From Mycoplasmataceae bacterium (lineage in GTDB: Bacteria > Bacillota_I > Bacilli_A > Mycoplasmatales > Mycoplasmoidaceae): 38,948 nt of DNA. A model generated the notes under the pieces. That model ran no database searches, was not told the origin of the DNA, and was given only the letters and a program-made list of their open reading frames with translations. Position numbers and translations under genes: made by a program. This document shows positions 153-38,884 of the stretch, piece after piece. The stretch is from positions 1 to 38,948 of the forward strand of contig JAISGU010000036.1 in the NCBI GenBank assembly GCA_031262935.1, read 5' to 3'. Each line of letters opens with the position of its first letter. Position 1 is the stretch's first letter.

Positions 153-299
153 TTATTTTTCTTTTTTTAGATATGTTTTTCTATCTATTTGTACACGTTT
201 TAGTATTCGCCATTTTATAAACGATTCCTTGGTAACTTCTCAATATTTACCGTGTCTATCTTTAACTTTCGATATTTTAATCTCACCTGGTTTATCCAT
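153..299 (-). CDS. Small basic protein, YWxVTK family, left copy (48 aa)
   Basis: I do not recognise this from any named family. It encodes 48 residues, rich in Lys/Arg, with two Trp (one from TGA). It aligns along its length with the 51-aa product at 36365..36520: both share the pattern D-x-x-G-x-Y-W-x-V-T-K-x-S, then W-x-I-x-K-R-x-x-I-x-R. Conservation of a reading frame between two diverged copies is the main evidence that it is a real gene. A TATAAT box ends 6 nt before the ATG and there is no Shine-Dalgarno sequence, so the mRNA is probably leaderless. Upstream lies a 27-bp box that is also upstream of the other copy. Small size and basic charge would suit a nucleic-acid-binding role, but that is speculation. 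Confidence 0.6.
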
Positions 300-324: not shown

Positions 325-350
325 ATATTACTAACTAACTTTTAAAATTT

Positions 351-377
351 ATGGACACATTCGTATATAAGAGCGAT
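351..377 (-). repeat. 27-bp conserved box, left copy
   Basis: Read on the minus strand, 25 of 27 bases match the box at 36267..36293 on the plus strand, including the core CGAATGTGTCCAT. Both copies lie 50-75 bp upstream of a small YWxVTK gene and point the same way relative to it. It could be the outer end of a mobile element, a recombination site or a binding site. Confidence 0.6.
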
Positions 378-4571: not shown

Positions 4572-5017
4572 TATTTATTCCTTTGTTGTAATAGTTTCTT
4601 TTGTCTAATTAATTCTTTTTGATTTGTAGATGATACTTCTTTTAATTTTTTATCAGCAACAAAGAATATGGTTTCAATATTTTTATCTAATAAATGGTTA
4701 TTTTGAGCCATATTAAGTTCATATCCTACATCTTTACAATTTCTAATTGATCTAACAATATATTTGCATTTTATTTTCTTAAGTAAAGACGTAGTTAAAC
4801 CTATATTGGTAATAACTTTTACATTTTTTAAATGCAAATTATTTACCATCTTCTTTACATTTAAAACCCTTTTGTTTAAATCATCAACAGGTTTATCAAC
4901 ATTAATAGAAACCGCTACATAAAGGGTTTTAAATAATTTGCTTGCTCTTTTAATAATATCAATGTGGCCTTTATGAATTGGGTTAAAACTACCAGGGAAA
5001 ACTGCAGATAATAGCAT
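4571..5017 (-). CDS. coaD: Phosphopantetheine adenylyltransferase (CoaD)
   Basis: Transfers AMP from ATP to 4'-phosphopantetheine to form dephospho-CoA, the penultimate step of CoA synthesis. The nucleotidyltransferase signature PGSFNPIHKGH lies at about residues 8-18, with the HxGH motif intact. The central RSIR...YELNMA segment matches the family's RGLR...YExxMA. The C-terminus keeps a Ser-Ser near the expected ISSS position but ends early: 148 aa against about 160. I chose the ATG at 5017 because the family starts 4-6 residues before the AVFPGSF motif; an upstream in-frame TTG at 5056 would add 13 unlike residues. No clear Shine-Dalgarno is seen at either start. Confidence 0.85.
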   Translation of the reverse strand: MLLSAVFPGSFNPIHKGHIDIIKRASKLFKTLYVAVSINVDKPVDDLNKRVLNVKKMVNNLHLKNVKVITNIGLTTSLLKKIKCKYIVRSIRNCKDVGYELNMAQNNHLLDKNIETIFFVADKKLKEVSSTNQKELIRQKKLLQQRNK

Positions 5018-5057: not shown

Positions 5058-5759
5058 TTAATAGTGATTTAATGCATTTAATTTAATACCTGTATTATCA
5101 TCGATGTATTGTTTTAATAATTTAATAACAAAATCTAATTCAGCAATATATTTACTTAATTCATTCAATTTGTTATTAAATAAATAATAAAAAACCTTAC
5201 TAACATCCAGCCCATAATGCCTATCTGTTTTAGAATCAAAACAAGCATTACAAATCATTCCGTGATTTGTAAGCGAAATGGTTTTTAATTTATTGCTACC
5301 GCATTTAACGCAATGATTAACTTCAAAATTAAGTCCAGATAATAAACAAAAATCTTTAAGAATAGCAAGTATTTGCATTTCTTCACTATATTCATTTTTA
5401 TTAATTAAATCTAATAACTCTTTATAAAAATCAAATACTTGCTTATCATACTTATTTGTCTTGTCCACACATTCATTTAATAAATTAAATTGAATTAAAT
5501 TTTCATATCTTCAATCAGCAGTTTTGATAGCATGAACCTTCTTTAATTTACTTAATTTATCTTGTGTTCTGCTTTCAAATATTTCAAACTCTACATAACT
5601 GCCTAAAAATAAATTTCTTGCATTTTTAGATTCTATTTTTCTACTACCTAATGAAATACAAGTTATTTTTTTATTAGGAATAATGAAAGTAATAATTTCA
5701 TCAAACACTTGATATGGTTGTCTTTTAATAACATATCCTTGATAGATAGATTCTGCCAT
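5058..5759 (-). CDS. recO: DNA repair protein RecO
   Basis: Recombination mediator that loads RecA onto single-stranded DNA with RecR. 233 aa. The N-terminal half (about 1-80) resembles the RecO OB fold in layout. The C-terminal half holds a CxxC...CxxC zinc site (CVKCGS then CNACFD) with the typical spacing. An in-frame TGA (Trp) follows residue 82. First gene of the recO-coaD-coaX unit and divergent from smpB across 33 bp. Confidence 0.85.
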
Positions 5760-7434: not shown

Positions 7435-8640
7435 TTATAGTTCTGAATGATTAATAAATTTTATGAATTCTTTAATTAAATTCTTTGCACTATCTAATTG
7501 TTCCTTAGAAGGATTAAATCTAATGTGTATCCCTTGTTTAAATGGTTTCTGTTTTAATCCTTCTAAATACTTAATAACAATATTTTGTGCTTCTCCACTT
7601 CACCCATATGAACCAAACACAAGTATATTTTTATCAATTACATTAATTGTATCTAATGAACTTAACAATTGTACAGCTGGAGGTAATGCGTTTTTATTAA
7701 GCGTTGGTGTACCTATACAAAAAGCGGTAGAATCATTCATTAATTTAATCATTTGTGACATATCATTTTGATTCAAATCATAAACATTTGTTTTAATGTT
7801 TTGATTGATTTCATTTATGGTTTGTTTAATTGTTTGTGCAATATGTTTGGTATATCCATATGAAGAAACATAAAAAATTGGAATAGATAAAGATTGTTTT
7901 TCTTCTTTACTTCATTCCTTATATTTTTCAATTACAAAAGAAGCCAAACAATCTTTTGTTAAAATTGGTCCATGACTTGTACAATAATTATTTACATCTA
8001 ATATTTGTAATTTATCTAACCCACTTCTTGCATATTTTTTAAATGGACTAAAAATTACATCATAGTAAAGTTTTAATGACGACTTATATTCATTTACATA
8101 TGTAATGTTTTTATCAATCATTGTTGGTTCACAATAATGAGAACCTAAGAAATCACAAGTAAATATTGTTTTATCTTCTTTACAATATGTAAAAATAGAA
8201 TCTGGTCAATGTAAAAATGGAGTTAAAATAAACTCTAATGTTTTATTACCCAAATCTAATACTTCACGATCTTTAACAACATGAGTATTTAATTTAAGTT
8301 TTGTTATTTCTGTTAAAAAGATTTTACTAGCAGCAGAACAATAAATTTCAATATTAGGAATTTTTGTTAATAATGTTTTTAAACAGCCGGTGTGATCTGG
8401 TTCGCAATGATTAACGATTAAATAATCTATTTTGTCTAAAGGTGTAACTTCTTCTATATGAGATATATATTCATTCAAGAACATTTCATGACAACCGTCA
8501 ATGAGAGCAATTTTATTAGAACCTTTGACAATATATGAATTGTATGAAGTCCCATATTCAGTTCTCATAACAATATCAAAAATTCTCATGTTGGGGTTCA
8601 ATACCCCAACAGAATAAATATCTTTAGTTACTTTAAACAT
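7435..8640 (-). CDS. Flavodiiron protein (FprA type, oxygen/NO reductase)
   Basis: Reduces O2 to water (or NO to N2O) with electrons from rubredoxin; cytosolic protection of anaerobes. 401 aa, the standard length of the two-domain form. Domain 1 (1 to about 245) is a metallo-beta-lactamase fold with diiron ligands visible: NHCEPDHTG near 77-85 (HxExDH), FLHWPDS near 142-148, CDFLG, and TSHGPI near 222. Domain 2 (about 250-401) is flavodoxin-like, beginning at FYVSSYGYTKHIA and carrying a GSYGW segment. There is no fused rubredoxin domain; a separate rubredoxin gene lies 2 nt upstream. I cannot say from sequence whether O2 or NO is preferred. Confidence 0.95.
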
Positions 8641-8642
8641 AA

Positions 8643-8777
8643 TTAAAGTTTTCTAAATTGGTCTTTACCTGCGCCACAAGTTGGGCAAGTTCAAGATGCA
8701 TCTAAAGAATCAAAAGATTTGCCCTCTTTTTCTTCATCGTATGTATAACCACATACTGTACATTGATATTTAGCCAT
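8643..8777 (-). CDS. Rubredoxin, short form (44 aa)
   Basis: Small iron-sulfur electron carrier with one Fe bound by four Cys. Ligands are in CTVCGYTYD (residues 6-14) and CPTCGAGKDQF. The loop between the pairs is about 8-9 residues shorter than in typical 52-54-aa rubredoxins, resembling the known short rubredoxin of Desulfovibrio desulfuricans. One Trp before the second Cys pair is encoded by TGA. Shine-Dalgarno AAGGAG precedes the ATG. The stop is 2 nt from the flavodiiron start, so the two are co-translated redox partners. Too short for ordinary ORF cut-offs. Confidence 0.95.
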
Positions 8778-8862
8778 TTTTTACTCCTTGATTAATATCT
8801 ATCTTAATTGTAGAACAATAAACTAAATAAAATTGTTATTCACTTTTATTCAATGTAGCACA

Positions 8863-9855
8863 CTAAACATTAAAAGCTAATGTACTACAAGGTTTTTTAA
8901 TTAACTCTTCTAATTCATTATCTAGTTTCATTAAAGAAATTGACATCCCTGGCATATCAATTGCTGTCATGTAATTACCAACATGAGTAGATACGACCTT
9001 AATATCTTTTTGTTTCAAAATATCTTGTAATTTACGATTAGCAATATAAAGTTCCATTAATGGTGTTGCACCTAATCCATTTACTAAACAAGCAACTTTA
9101 TCATTTGATTGAATTTGTAAATGACTAATAATTGCTTCGGTCATTTCATTTACAAATTCATCTACAGATTTTAATGTTTCTTTTTTAACACCCGGTTCTC
9201 CATGAATTCCTAATCCCATTTCCACTTCGTTGTCTTTTAATTCAAAACCTTTTTTACCAACCGCTGGCACAATACAAGAATCTAAAGCCACACCATATGT
9301 ACCAACATTCTTAATTGCTTTTTCTGCAATTGCTTTAACTTCTTGTAATGATGCTCCGCTTTGTGCTTTAGCACCAGTTACTTTGTGAACTAACACCGTC
9401 CCAGCAATTCCTCTCATTCCTGTTGCTGCTTTATTGTTAATTAAAGCAACATCATCAGCAACAACTACATAATCAACATCCTTGCCTTCCATTTGTGACA
9501 TTTCAGCAGCCATTTTAAAATTCATTAAATCACCCGTATAGTTTTTAATAATTAGCAAAGCCCCTTTAGACGAATCACATTGATTAATAGCTGCTTGAAC
9601 CATATCTGGTGTTGGTGACGTAAATATTTGACCAGCAACAGCGGCAGATAACATCCCATCACCTACATATCCTGCATGCGCTGGTTCGTGACCACTACCA
9701 CCACCAGATACTAATGCAACATTATTTTTGTTAAATGTTTTGGAATAGATAACATTGTATCCTTCTACCCTTCCTAATCTATTAGGAGCAGAGGATACAA
9801 TACCATCTACCATTTCTGTAACAATGTTTTCAATTTTGTTTATTAATTTTTTCAT
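8863..9855 (-). CDS. dhaK: Dihydroxyacetone kinase subunit DhaK
   Basis: Binds dihydroxyacetone covalently and presents it for phosphorylation to DHAP. In the PTS-linked system phosphate comes from DhaM through ADP on DhaL. 330 aa, the standard DhaK length. The signature SGGGSGHEPAHAGYVG lies near 50-65, and the substrate-binding His is in LGIHGEPG near 217, close to His218 of E. coli DhaK. It is the K domain only: no DhaL or DhaM gene is next to it, so those must be elsewhere if the kinase works. Shine-Dalgarno GAAGGA. Same strand as, and 85 bp upstream of, rubredoxin. Confidence 0.95.
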   Translation of the reverse strand: MKKLINKIENIVTEMVDGIVSSAPNRLGRVEGYNVIYSKTFNKNNVALVSGGGSGHEPAHAGYVGDGMLSAAVAGQIFTSPTPDMVQAAINQCDSSKGALLIIKNYTGDLMNFKMAAEMSQMEGKDVDYVVVADDVALINNKAATGMRGIAGTVLVHKVTGAKAQSGASLQEVKAIAEKAIKNVGTYGVALDSCIVPAVGKKGFELKDNEVEMGLGIHGEPGVKKETLKSVDEFVNEMTEAIISHLQIQSNDKVACLVNGLGATPLMELYIANRKLQDILKQKDIKVVSTHVGNYMTAIDMPGMSISLMKLDNELEELIKKPCSTLAFNV

Positions 9856-36237: not shown

Positions 36238-36364
36238 AGAATGGTGATTATATATATGAATTTATAATCGCTCTTTTAAACGAATGTGTCCATTAATTGG
36301 TTAGTGGGACGTCAGAAAGCATAAATATTTTTTAATTTTTTTATAAAAATGGTATACTATTTAC
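36238..36364. other. Intergenic region carrying the cassette's left boundary
   Basis: Contains the promoter of the minus-strand 33-aa ORF, the 27-bp conserved box, about 50 bp of AT-rich sequence starting with the unusually GC-rich GTGGGACGTCAGAAAG, and the promoter of the plus-strand 51-aa ORF. No gene is seen. Confidence 0.5.
36267..36293 (+). repeat. 27-bp conserved box, right copy
   Basis: Matches the box at 351..377 (minus strand) in 25 of 27 bases. It is 72 bp upstream of the 51-aa gene; the left copy is 52 bp upstream of the 48-aa gene. If the transposase belongs to the cassette this may be its left terminus. Confidence 0.6.
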
Positions 36365-36366
36365 AT
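36345..36366 (+). promoter_or_regulatory. Promoter of the right small YWxVTK gene
   Basis: TGGTATACT is an extended -10 (TG-N-TATACT) whose last base is 6 nt before the ATG at 36365. The surrounding AAAAATGGTATACTATTTAC is nearly repeated upstream of the transposase gene. Confidence 0.5.
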
Positions 36367-36520
36367 GCCTAAAAGTGAACAAAGAATAGAATACAACCGT
36401 GATAGCAAAGGTAATTATTGGAAGGTTACTAAGCAGAGTTATACGATGTGAAATATAGTAAAACGTGAGAAAATCAGCAGAGTAGAATGGCAAAAGTATA
36501 ACAAAGGTGACAGACATTAA
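36365..36520 (+). CDS. Small basic protein, YWxVTK family, right copy (51 aa)
   Basis: Not a named family that I know. 51 residues, strongly basic, with three Trp, one of them from TGA. It aligns with the 48-aa product at 153..299: DSKGNYWKVTKQSYTMW against DRHGKYWEVTKESFIKW, then IVKREKISR against ILKRVQIDR. The start is supported by the homologous start of the other copy and by a -10 box 6 nt upstream, with no Shine-Dalgarno. Located 83 bp upstream of the transposase on the same strand; could regulate it or be part of the same mobile unit. Confidence 0.6.
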
Positions 36521-36559
36521 AAATAGTTAAAAAAGTTTAAAATAATTGCTCCACTTTCT

Positions 36560-36585
36560 TAAAAATATGGTATAATATTTTACAT
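36560..36585 (+). promoter_or_regulatory. Promoter of the transposase gene
   Basis: AAAAATATGGTATAATATTT includes an extended -10 (TGGTATAAT, box at 36571-36576). It nearly repeats the promoter at 36345-36366. A Shine-Dalgarno, AAGAGG, follows 7 nt before the transposase ATG. Confidence 0.5.
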
Positions 36586-36603
36586 TTTTTAAGAGGTATT
36601 TTA

Positions 36604-37686
36604 ATGACTATTAATTATTCAACAATTGACAATTTATGCAGACAAGTTGAACTTTTAAACCAAGATGAACTAAGCATATTACTCTCTAAACTCGATAGAA
36701 CTTCAAGAGATAGACTACAAACCGAAATATTTGACTCTTTATCTCAAAACACTAATAACGGTATTGAGTATTGTCCTTATTGCGGTGGTATTCGTATTAA
36801 CAAGAAAGGTAAAGCACACGGTACTCAACGATACATATGTAGAGACTGTAATAAAACATTCACAAGTACTAAGAACTCCATCTTCTATCACTTTAGAAAA
36901 GACTACGAGCCTAAATTTAAAAAGTTTATTGAGTGTATGGTAAATAGACTGACATTGATACGATCTGCTGAAATTAGTGGTATTACTTTGATGTGTAGTT
37001 GAAATTGAAGACACAAGATTATGAATGTAATTGACAAGTTCTTTGAAAACGACCAATTAACAGGACTAATAGAAATGGATGAAACATTCTTCTCTAAATG
37101 TTTTAAAGGTAATCACAAACACTTCCAGTTACCAAGAAAAGCTAGACATCGTGGATTTAGTCATTGAGTATGTGACCCAGCTGGTATTGGTAAACATAAA
37201 GTATGTGTATCTACAAGTGTTGGTAGAAACAAAGGAGTATTAAACCATATTCTAGGTTGTGGTAATCCAAATAGTGAATTAATTGTTAATGCTTACAAGA
37301 ACAAGATTATCAAGACTGAACAAACTAAACTAATCATTGATGGTGCTGGTTGATCATGTTTAGCTGCAAAACAAATGAACATCCAATACAAACAATTGGT
37401 TAAGAAAGGTAAAAATCCTAATGACCACTCACCAGTCGTTAAAGGGAAATACCACTTACAAAATGTTAATAACTATCATTCACAAATTAAAGGACTATTA
37501 AACCAAACTTTCAAGGGTGTGGCAACTAAATATTTAGAACGATATTTAAACTTAGTGAAATGATTAAGAATTAACAACAATGGTTTTAACGTTAGTGTTC
37601 AAGCAATGTTAACAATGTGTGTAACCGTTAGTCGTAACATGATTAATACTCAAATTAGAACTATGAATATTTTAACTTTGAACTAG
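36604..37686 (+). mobile_element. IS1595-family transposase
   Basis: 360-aa transposase, apparently intact. An N-terminal segment leads to a zinc ribbon (CPYCGG...CRDCNKTF, residues 58-83). The DDE-type nuclease core has the first Asp in IEMDETFFSK near 157 and the second in IIDGAGW near 246. The C-terminal block NNYHSQIKGLL...GVATKYLERYL matches the YHSRLK...GVATKYLxNYL block of IS1595-type transposases. Seven or more Trp are TGA-encoded, so it is adapted to this genetic code and not a recent arrival from a standard-code host. No inverted repeat matching the left box was found on the right side. Confidence 0.85.
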
Positions 37687-37695
37687 GAGCAAACT

Positions 37696-37842
37696 ATGAC
37701 TAAACGTAAAATGGAATATCTTGCAACTCATAAAGACATTGAACTTAAAGAAAAATGAAAGTGAACTATTAAACTATCGATCTTGTTAGCTAGAGGAAGT
37801 GATGATCCAATTAGAACACTAAAAATATTGTGGTCGTATTAA
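37696..37842 (+). CDS. Small ORF downstream of the transposase (48 aa)
   Basis: Not recognised. 48 residues starting MTKRKMEYLATHKD, with two TGA-encoded Trp in KWKW and a hydrophobic-basic C-terminal half. A good Shine-Dalgarno (TAGGAG) and a 9-nt gap to the transposase stop suggest co-expression. Its stop overlaps the hsdS stop on the other strand by 4 nt. The start context resembles that of the ORF at positions 11..1 minus. Could be a passenger of the insertion sequence. Confidence 0.5.
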
Positions 37843-38828
37843 ATTAGTAGATTAATTAATTTAGAATGTATCTCGTTTAAGTATTCAATATTTTTACTCA
37901 TCACGTAGTTATTCATAAGTATTGTGTCTATTTTCTTTCCATATTCATTTATCTCGTCTATTGATAAGTTAGGAATTTGTATTGATAAAAAAGAATTGTT
38001 GTTAATACCAATCATTGTTGTACCTGAACTATTCAAATCTTTATTACTCTGAAAATCTTTAGTTTGAACAAGAATGTATAAGTAGTTAATTAAATATTGA
38101 TTTGTTGATGTTAAACCAATAAAACCTGTTGAAAATATTTGTTTGCTTAAAATATCTTTGCTGTAATCTTTAACTAAAATAAATTTTGGTGAATTTGATA
38201 GCTTTGCTAATCATACAGAATTAACTATCGGTTGCATATTGGCTCTAGATGGTCTATCTAATAATGTAATATTAATTCCTTCTTTAACTTGTTGTACTCC
38301 ATCTATACACGATGTATCTATGTATTCCTTGTTATTAACAAAATCATTGATACCTGACTTAATAAAGTCAACATCTTTTAAATTTCTCATAGTTGTAAAA
38401 CTCTTATTTATTATTATTAGTTTTAATAATTTTTTACATAGTTGAAGATTCTTATTAACTGATGATATCAATGTTTCTCTTAACTTTTCTATAGGTTCAA
38501 TAATGTCAATTATTTGTCGTTGAACAAAAATTGGTGGTACATACAATAGTAAATTTGATAATTCATCATTTCTTAAACTTTGTATAGTAGATTTTGCTGA
38601 CATTTTAATTAATCTGTCTTTGACCATATTTAAATAATGTCATAAATATTTTTCTAAAATTTTATCACCGCATTGAAAAATAAAATTTGCATTATTTGAA
38701 TAAAAAGGTGAATTAATTCAATGTAATGTTCCTACAGAACCTGCTCTTGCCATTGTTATATGAGCATTGAATGAATTAGAATTTGTAAAATATCCTATTG
38801 GTTTTGCTCCTCCTGAGTAAACAGGATA
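37839..38828 (-). pseudogene. hsdS: Type I restriction specificity subunit HsdS, 5'-truncated (silent cassette?)
   Basis: HsdS reads the DNA target of type I restriction-modification enzymes. About 330 codons are recognisable. The sequence begins inside the first target-recognition domain (YPVYSGGAKPIGYFTN, then HITMARAGSVGTLHW). Next come the central conserved helices (VPPIFVQRQIIDIIEPIEKL), the second recognition domain, and the final helix region (SIDEINEYGKKIDTIL... SKLINLLI). The N-terminal ~50 residues are missing: the frame continues upstream without similarity, has no ATG, and meets a TAA at 38943-38945. This fits a silent hsdS cassette used for recombination, as in other mollicutes, or simple decay. 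No hsdM or hsdR gene is in the window. Confidence 0.8.
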
Positions 38829-38884
38829 TATATAAGTTAGGATAAATAAGTCGGACCAGTTTTGTGAAAGAAACGAGGTTAGAC

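Follow-up and report, generated by a model that had tools for sequence, protein, structure and literature searches.

The features at either end of the window, which is the entire 38,948-nucleotide contig C11 of a 742-kb draft genome in 46 contigs, are almost certainly the left ends of transporter ISs, here transposons of the IS1595 family that carry passenger genes. The host is a mollicute-like genome in which TGA encodes Trp, and small open reading frames were translated with genetic code 4 (TGA = Trp). The explanation that best accounts for the results combines this element identity with autoregulation by a small protein, the YWxVTK protein, encoded next to the left end; we put its probability at roughly 0.6. 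For the regulatory mechanism taken by itself, the odds are about even.

The original prediction placed a 27-bp box and, after it, a small gene at each window end, as diverged copies in inverted orientation, and this arrangement was confirmed in the sequence. The boxes lie at 36267-36293 (+) and 377-351 (-) and are identical at 25/27 positions, as had been claimed, with 0 expected in shuffles. A relaxed box pattern matched 19 sites in the draft genome, compared with 0 for the reversed control. The box is a left terminal inverted repeat (at least 25 bp, beginning with CGCT) plus 2 bp of the target: the repeat of the right copy spans 36269-36297 (+), and that of the second, interrupted element spans 347-375 (-). 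Beside the former, 36261-36268 (+) is an 8-bp target copy, TTTATAAT, positioned as in the perfect duplications of four sister elements; the 8 bp outside the repeat of the left copy (376-383, -) are ATAACAAT. Within the contig each copy has its left repeat alone, and terminal repeats and duplications were judged on the sister elements.

On contig C38, two boxes face each other across 9.4 kb and make up the longest inverted repeat pair in that region; the left and right repeats of this element both carry TATATACGAATGTGTGTATAAA, unlike those of other elements. With the repeat start taken as CGCT, perfect 8-bp duplications were found in 4/4 two-ended elements of this genome: the C38 element (TTTATAAT), an element whose two halves on C5 and C16 are joined only by their matching ends (ATTATACA), and two MITEs, one of about 120 bp in C34 (CCTATAAT) and one of about 110 bp in C6 (ATTATAGG). 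The target sites favour NNTATANN; even with this preference, the probability of an 8/8 match by chance is about 0.014 for each element. The outer flanks had raised the readings that TATA lies inside the repeat or is a 4-bp duplication; both were dropped, as the CGCT start gave 4/4 perfect 8-bp duplications. Several IS1595 relatives also start with CGCT, perfect 8-bp duplications were also seen at more distant IS1595 elements (contig C35 and genome G007), and 8 bp is the usual target duplication of the family (PMC8101967).

The gene following the right copy had been called an IS1595 transposase, and profile searches bore this out. It lies at 36604-37686 (+) and encodes 360 aa, with an N-terminal zinc-binding domain and a DDE domain at residues 151-320. 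The protein matched NF033547 with 116.8 bits (cut-off 75; E = 1.2e-33), PF12762 (DDE_Tnp_IS1595) with 33.1 bits (cut-off 27), and the IS1/IS1595 zinc domain NF050000 with 46.5 bits (cut-off 28; E = 3.9e-12) at residues 57-89. D159 and D246 are conserved in three transposases of this genome and are candidate catalytic residues. The C38 transposase is 63% identical to that of the window. Related transposases were detected in 2/35 other genomes of the genus, and also in gut Bacilli and others.

The C38 sister element is closed, 9.5 kb long, and has a complete type I restriction-modification (R-M) system inside its repeats. From the left repeat, it contains the YWxVTK gene, the IS1595 transposase gene, a 48-aa orf3, and genes for HsdM, a PtuA/AAA_15-like ATPase, HsdS, a Fic-domain protein (on the other strand), and HsdR, followed by the right repeat. 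It thus carries, within its repeats, passenger genes unrelated to transposition, by which transporter ISs are defined. The ATPase gene interleaved with the R-M operon (L021 10692-12101, -) and the opposite-strand Fic-domain gene within it (L021 8656-9321, +) are possibly additional defence genes. The right copy of the window has the same gene order, ending in a truncated hsdS. Its orf3 (37696-37842, +; 48 aa) is conserved in three elements, each time with the transposase on one side and the cargo on the other; the other copies are at L021 13751-13891 (-) and L016 8858-9001 (-). orf3 is 90-94% identical across the three, whereas the adjacent transposases are just 63-73% identical; its changes are mostly synonymous, DNA homology stops sharply at its stop codon, and it had no match in any relative searched. 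The passenger that follows is an hsdS-like type I specificity gene (37839-38830, -), which has lost its start and is cut near 38830 by another repeat common to other contig ends. Because the right inverted repeat lies beyond the contig, the cargo reading of this copy rests on the sister elements.

The left copy consists of the repeat, the small gene, and the transposase promoter (126-147, -), after which it is interrupted by an unrelated high-copy IS, whose end (1-117, -) cuts off the transposase gene and ends the contig. The original prediction saw a changing partner in the gene starting at position 11. Positions 1-117 recur at 14 contig ends, and the gene is therefore part of this inserted IS rather than of the element. 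The same IS interrupts the C5 element, again just 3' of the transposase promoter. In the copies that it has not cut (C11 right, C38, and C25), the gene after the YWxVTK gene is always the IS1595 transposase. Both window ends lie in repeated elements (1-117 at 14 contig ends, 38830-38948 at about 4), which is why the assembly stops there. Passenger genes also occur in a 6.9-kb unit of G027, which has matching inverted repeats, an Eco57I-type methylase, a T5orf172 protein, and a transposase, and in the C35 element, whose cargo is a GIY-YIG gene. These elements and the units of this genome can therefore be placed in the known class of transporter ISs.

The YWxVTK gene spans 36365-36520 (+) in the right copy, encoding a basic protein of 51 aa with a predicted beta-beta-beta-alpha structure that is a candidate autoregulator, and 153-299 (-) in the left copy, encoding 48 aa. 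That the two proteins are related, as originally claimed, was upheld by the shuffle check: their alignment scored 94, whereas none of 5000 shuffles scored above 58. Five copies are present in the draft genome (C11 right, C11 left, C38, C5, and C25), and for every pair 0/5000 shuffles reached the observed score. Synonymous change exceeds amino-acid change, with dN/dS well below 1 across the five copies; the C38 and C5 genes encode an identical protein (pS 0.35, pN 0). Judged by this sequence evidence, the small gene truly encodes a protein. The last base of the -10 hexamer (TATACT on the right, TATAAT on the left) lies exactly 6 nt 5' of the ATG, and this leaderless spacing, first claimed for the two window copies, holds in 5/5 genomic copies. 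Wherever a copy is readable, the gene has the left inverted repeat on one side and the transposase on the other. The proteins have a pI near 10, and their invariant residues include Y18, W19, V21, K23, S25, W29, I31, R34, I37, and R39.

AlphaFold2 predicted three strands and a short helix (E-E-E-H) for both window proteins, with mean pLDDT values of 82.5 and 71.5, obtained with two sequences. The protein did not conform to the ribbon-helix-helix (RHH) fold, given the E-E-E-H prediction and no Pfam match. An integrase-arm/AP2-like beta sheet, suspected from the DxxGxYWxV pattern, found no support in any search. The prediction had named further copies with changing partners and dN/dS well below 1 as support, to be sought in this genome and related ones. 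Three further homologues (C25, C38, and C5) with dN/dS well below 1 were indeed found in this genome, but the partners do not change, and relatives of the host yielded none: the protein was absent from the 35 other genomes of the genus, from the 98 relatives searched, and from 319 other genomes of the order, where two marginal matches are what chance would give in so many genomes. Genome and viral contig collections, scanned by pattern, gave no match either, although such scans may miss genes with TGA for Trp. Nothing in Pfam, PHROG, NCBIfam, or PDB pointed to a function, and a Foldseek search of the predicted folds returned nothing below E = 0.001, which counts against an autoregulator. The small protein therefore matches no described family in these libraries and PDB, as originally stated, whereas the arrangement does have a match, the transporter IS. 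The YWxVTK proteins are a candidate new family of small regulators, known so far from one genome.

Promoter comparison supported a regulatory role. In the right copy, the small-gene promoter (36337-36364, +; -10 TATACT at 36353-36358, leaderless start) has a motif in common with the transposase promoter (36555-36580, +; p = 0.0095). In the left copy, the motif of the leaderless small-gene promoter (308-329, -; AATATTTGACAAA..TATAAT) is that of the transposase promoter at 126-147 (-; p = 0.0005). The two promoters share a motif within the element in 6/6 elements (p = 0.0005-0.02 vs shuffles), each element group having its own motif: (TTAC)ATATTTGACAAA in C38, C5, and C11 left, ATGGTATA-ATATTT in C11 right, and TTTATGCTATAMTTA in C34. 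The C34 motif has two exact matches in the genome, both in its own promoters. Similarly, TTACATATTTGACAAA with at most one mismatch occurs exactly 4 times in 742 kb, in both promoters of C38 and of C5. Re-pairing the motifs of five elements gave a modest result, as 2/120 permutations reached the observed sum. Against autoregulation, an old duplication or the -35/-10 consensus could account for part of the motif sharing. The corresponding slot of the C34 sister element is occupied by another small basic protein, which matches RHH/CopG weakly (RHH_3, E = 0.0027, below the Pfam cut-off; CopG, E = 0.025).

The full element reads, in order, 8-bp target, inverted repeat, YWxVTK gene, transposase, orf3, R-M genes, inverted repeat, and 8-bp target, the right-hand inverted repeat and right 8-bp target copy being outside the window and taken from sister copies. 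For its operation, we propose the following model. The transposase would cut or copy at the two repeats and insert the element at NNTATANN sites. The YWxVTK protein, translated from a leaderless mRNA, would be a small DNA-binding autoregulator that binds an element-specific operator in its own promoter and that of the transposase. After arrival of the element in a new cell or at a new site, transposase would thus be produced for a short time and then be shut down. In the C34 sister element, a CopG-like RHH protein appears to take the YWxVTK slot. A broader version, that YWxVTK proteins form a new beta-beta-beta-alpha family of transposase regulators in an exchangeable slot (YWxVTK, RHH, or empty) of IS1595 transposons shuttling R-M systems in a minimal genome, is put forward tentatively, at somewhat less than even odds.

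The original prediction offered two roles for the small protein, an accessory or regulator of the element and part of an independent small mobile or regulatory unit. The first is supported by its position between repeat and transposase and by the element-specific promoter motif common with the transposase gene. A regulator nevertheless has a competitor within this role, as the protein could be a transposition co-factor, a small end-binding protein that aids transposase assembly on the repeats in an architectural or targeting capacity rather than as a repressor. It is basic, its gene adjoins the left repeat, and it was seen only with this IS1595 subgroup. However, the C44, C35, G027, and G007 elements have transposases but no such gene, and the element-specific common motif lies in promoters, not in repeats; we regard a co-factor as unlikely. 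Slightly less likely still is a passenger with its own job, such as an anti-restriction protein, an R-M modulator, or an antitoxin, that merely sits at the left end. In favour of this, the R-M and nuclease genes aboard the elements could require restriction to be delayed, but the YWxVTK gene always lies between repeat and transposase and never among the cargo, is retained where the cargo differs or is unread (C25 and C11 left), and has a promoter motif in common with the transposase gene.

The second role, in which box and small gene form an independent cassette recruiting varied neighbours, did not survive and is very improbable. The box is the terminal repeat of the transposon, the small gene is not flanked by a repeat on its other side, the transposase comes next in all readable copies, and the left "partner" is the high-copy IS at 14 contig ends. 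MITE-like box pairs that contain no genes do exist in C6 and C34, and the repeats can therefore move without a transposase. Autoregulation by the YWxVTK protein remains our preferred reading.

The transposon type itself is known; what is new is the small-protein family, the exchangeable slot 5' of the transposase, and complete R-M cargo in this lineage. Elements of the IS1595 family (ISPna2, IS1595, and IS1016 groups; eukaryotic relative Merlin) share with those described here the transposase domain, zinc domain, inverted repeats, and 8-bp duplications. They normally have a single transposase gene (PMC8101967), whereas a leaderless small gene is found here 5' of the transposase, and orf3 and cargo 3' of it. 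Among IS1595 transporter ISs with passenger genes are MTnSag1 (tISSag10) and tISCpe8 (PMC5704250, PMC3129680); tISCpe8 is a lincomycin-resistance element, and both have been described as mobilizable (PMC5704250). These are alike in having an IS1595 transposase and passengers within one inverted repeat pair. The present elements differ in their cargo of complete type I or type II R-M systems, their mollicute-like host, and the presence of a regulator-like gene. A limited literature search found no earlier report of IS1595 elements with R-M cargo in mycoplasmas. CopG-type RHH autorepressors are likewise small basic proteins with a candidate operator in their own promoter, but the YWxVTK protein is predicted to have three strands and a short helix rather than an RHH fold, and the analogy is functional only.

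A transposon with a single transposase can thus carry complete R-M (anti-phage) systems around a reduced, mollicute-like genome, and our results suggest that such IS1595 elements carry an interchangeable small transposase repressor. If the regulatory step is true, the motif and protein pairs would constitute a compact, testable operator-repressor set that has diverged inside one genome.

Other box-bearing units were also observed. The MITE-like elements of about 110-120 bp, which have the same repeats, adjoin the ends of full elements at L017 (C34) 4629-4820 and L016 (C6) 5467-5625. Neighbouring elements are separated there by exactly one 8-bp target copy (CCTATAAT and ATTATAGG, respectively), which indicates repeated insertion into the same target. 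At L018 (C33) 7739-9186, a box precedes genes for two proteins, one of 230 aa that looks membrane-anchored and one of 213 aa in which an HNH-like motif was recognized by eye. The contig ends before any transposase gene, and this unit is possibly a non-autonomous transporter element.
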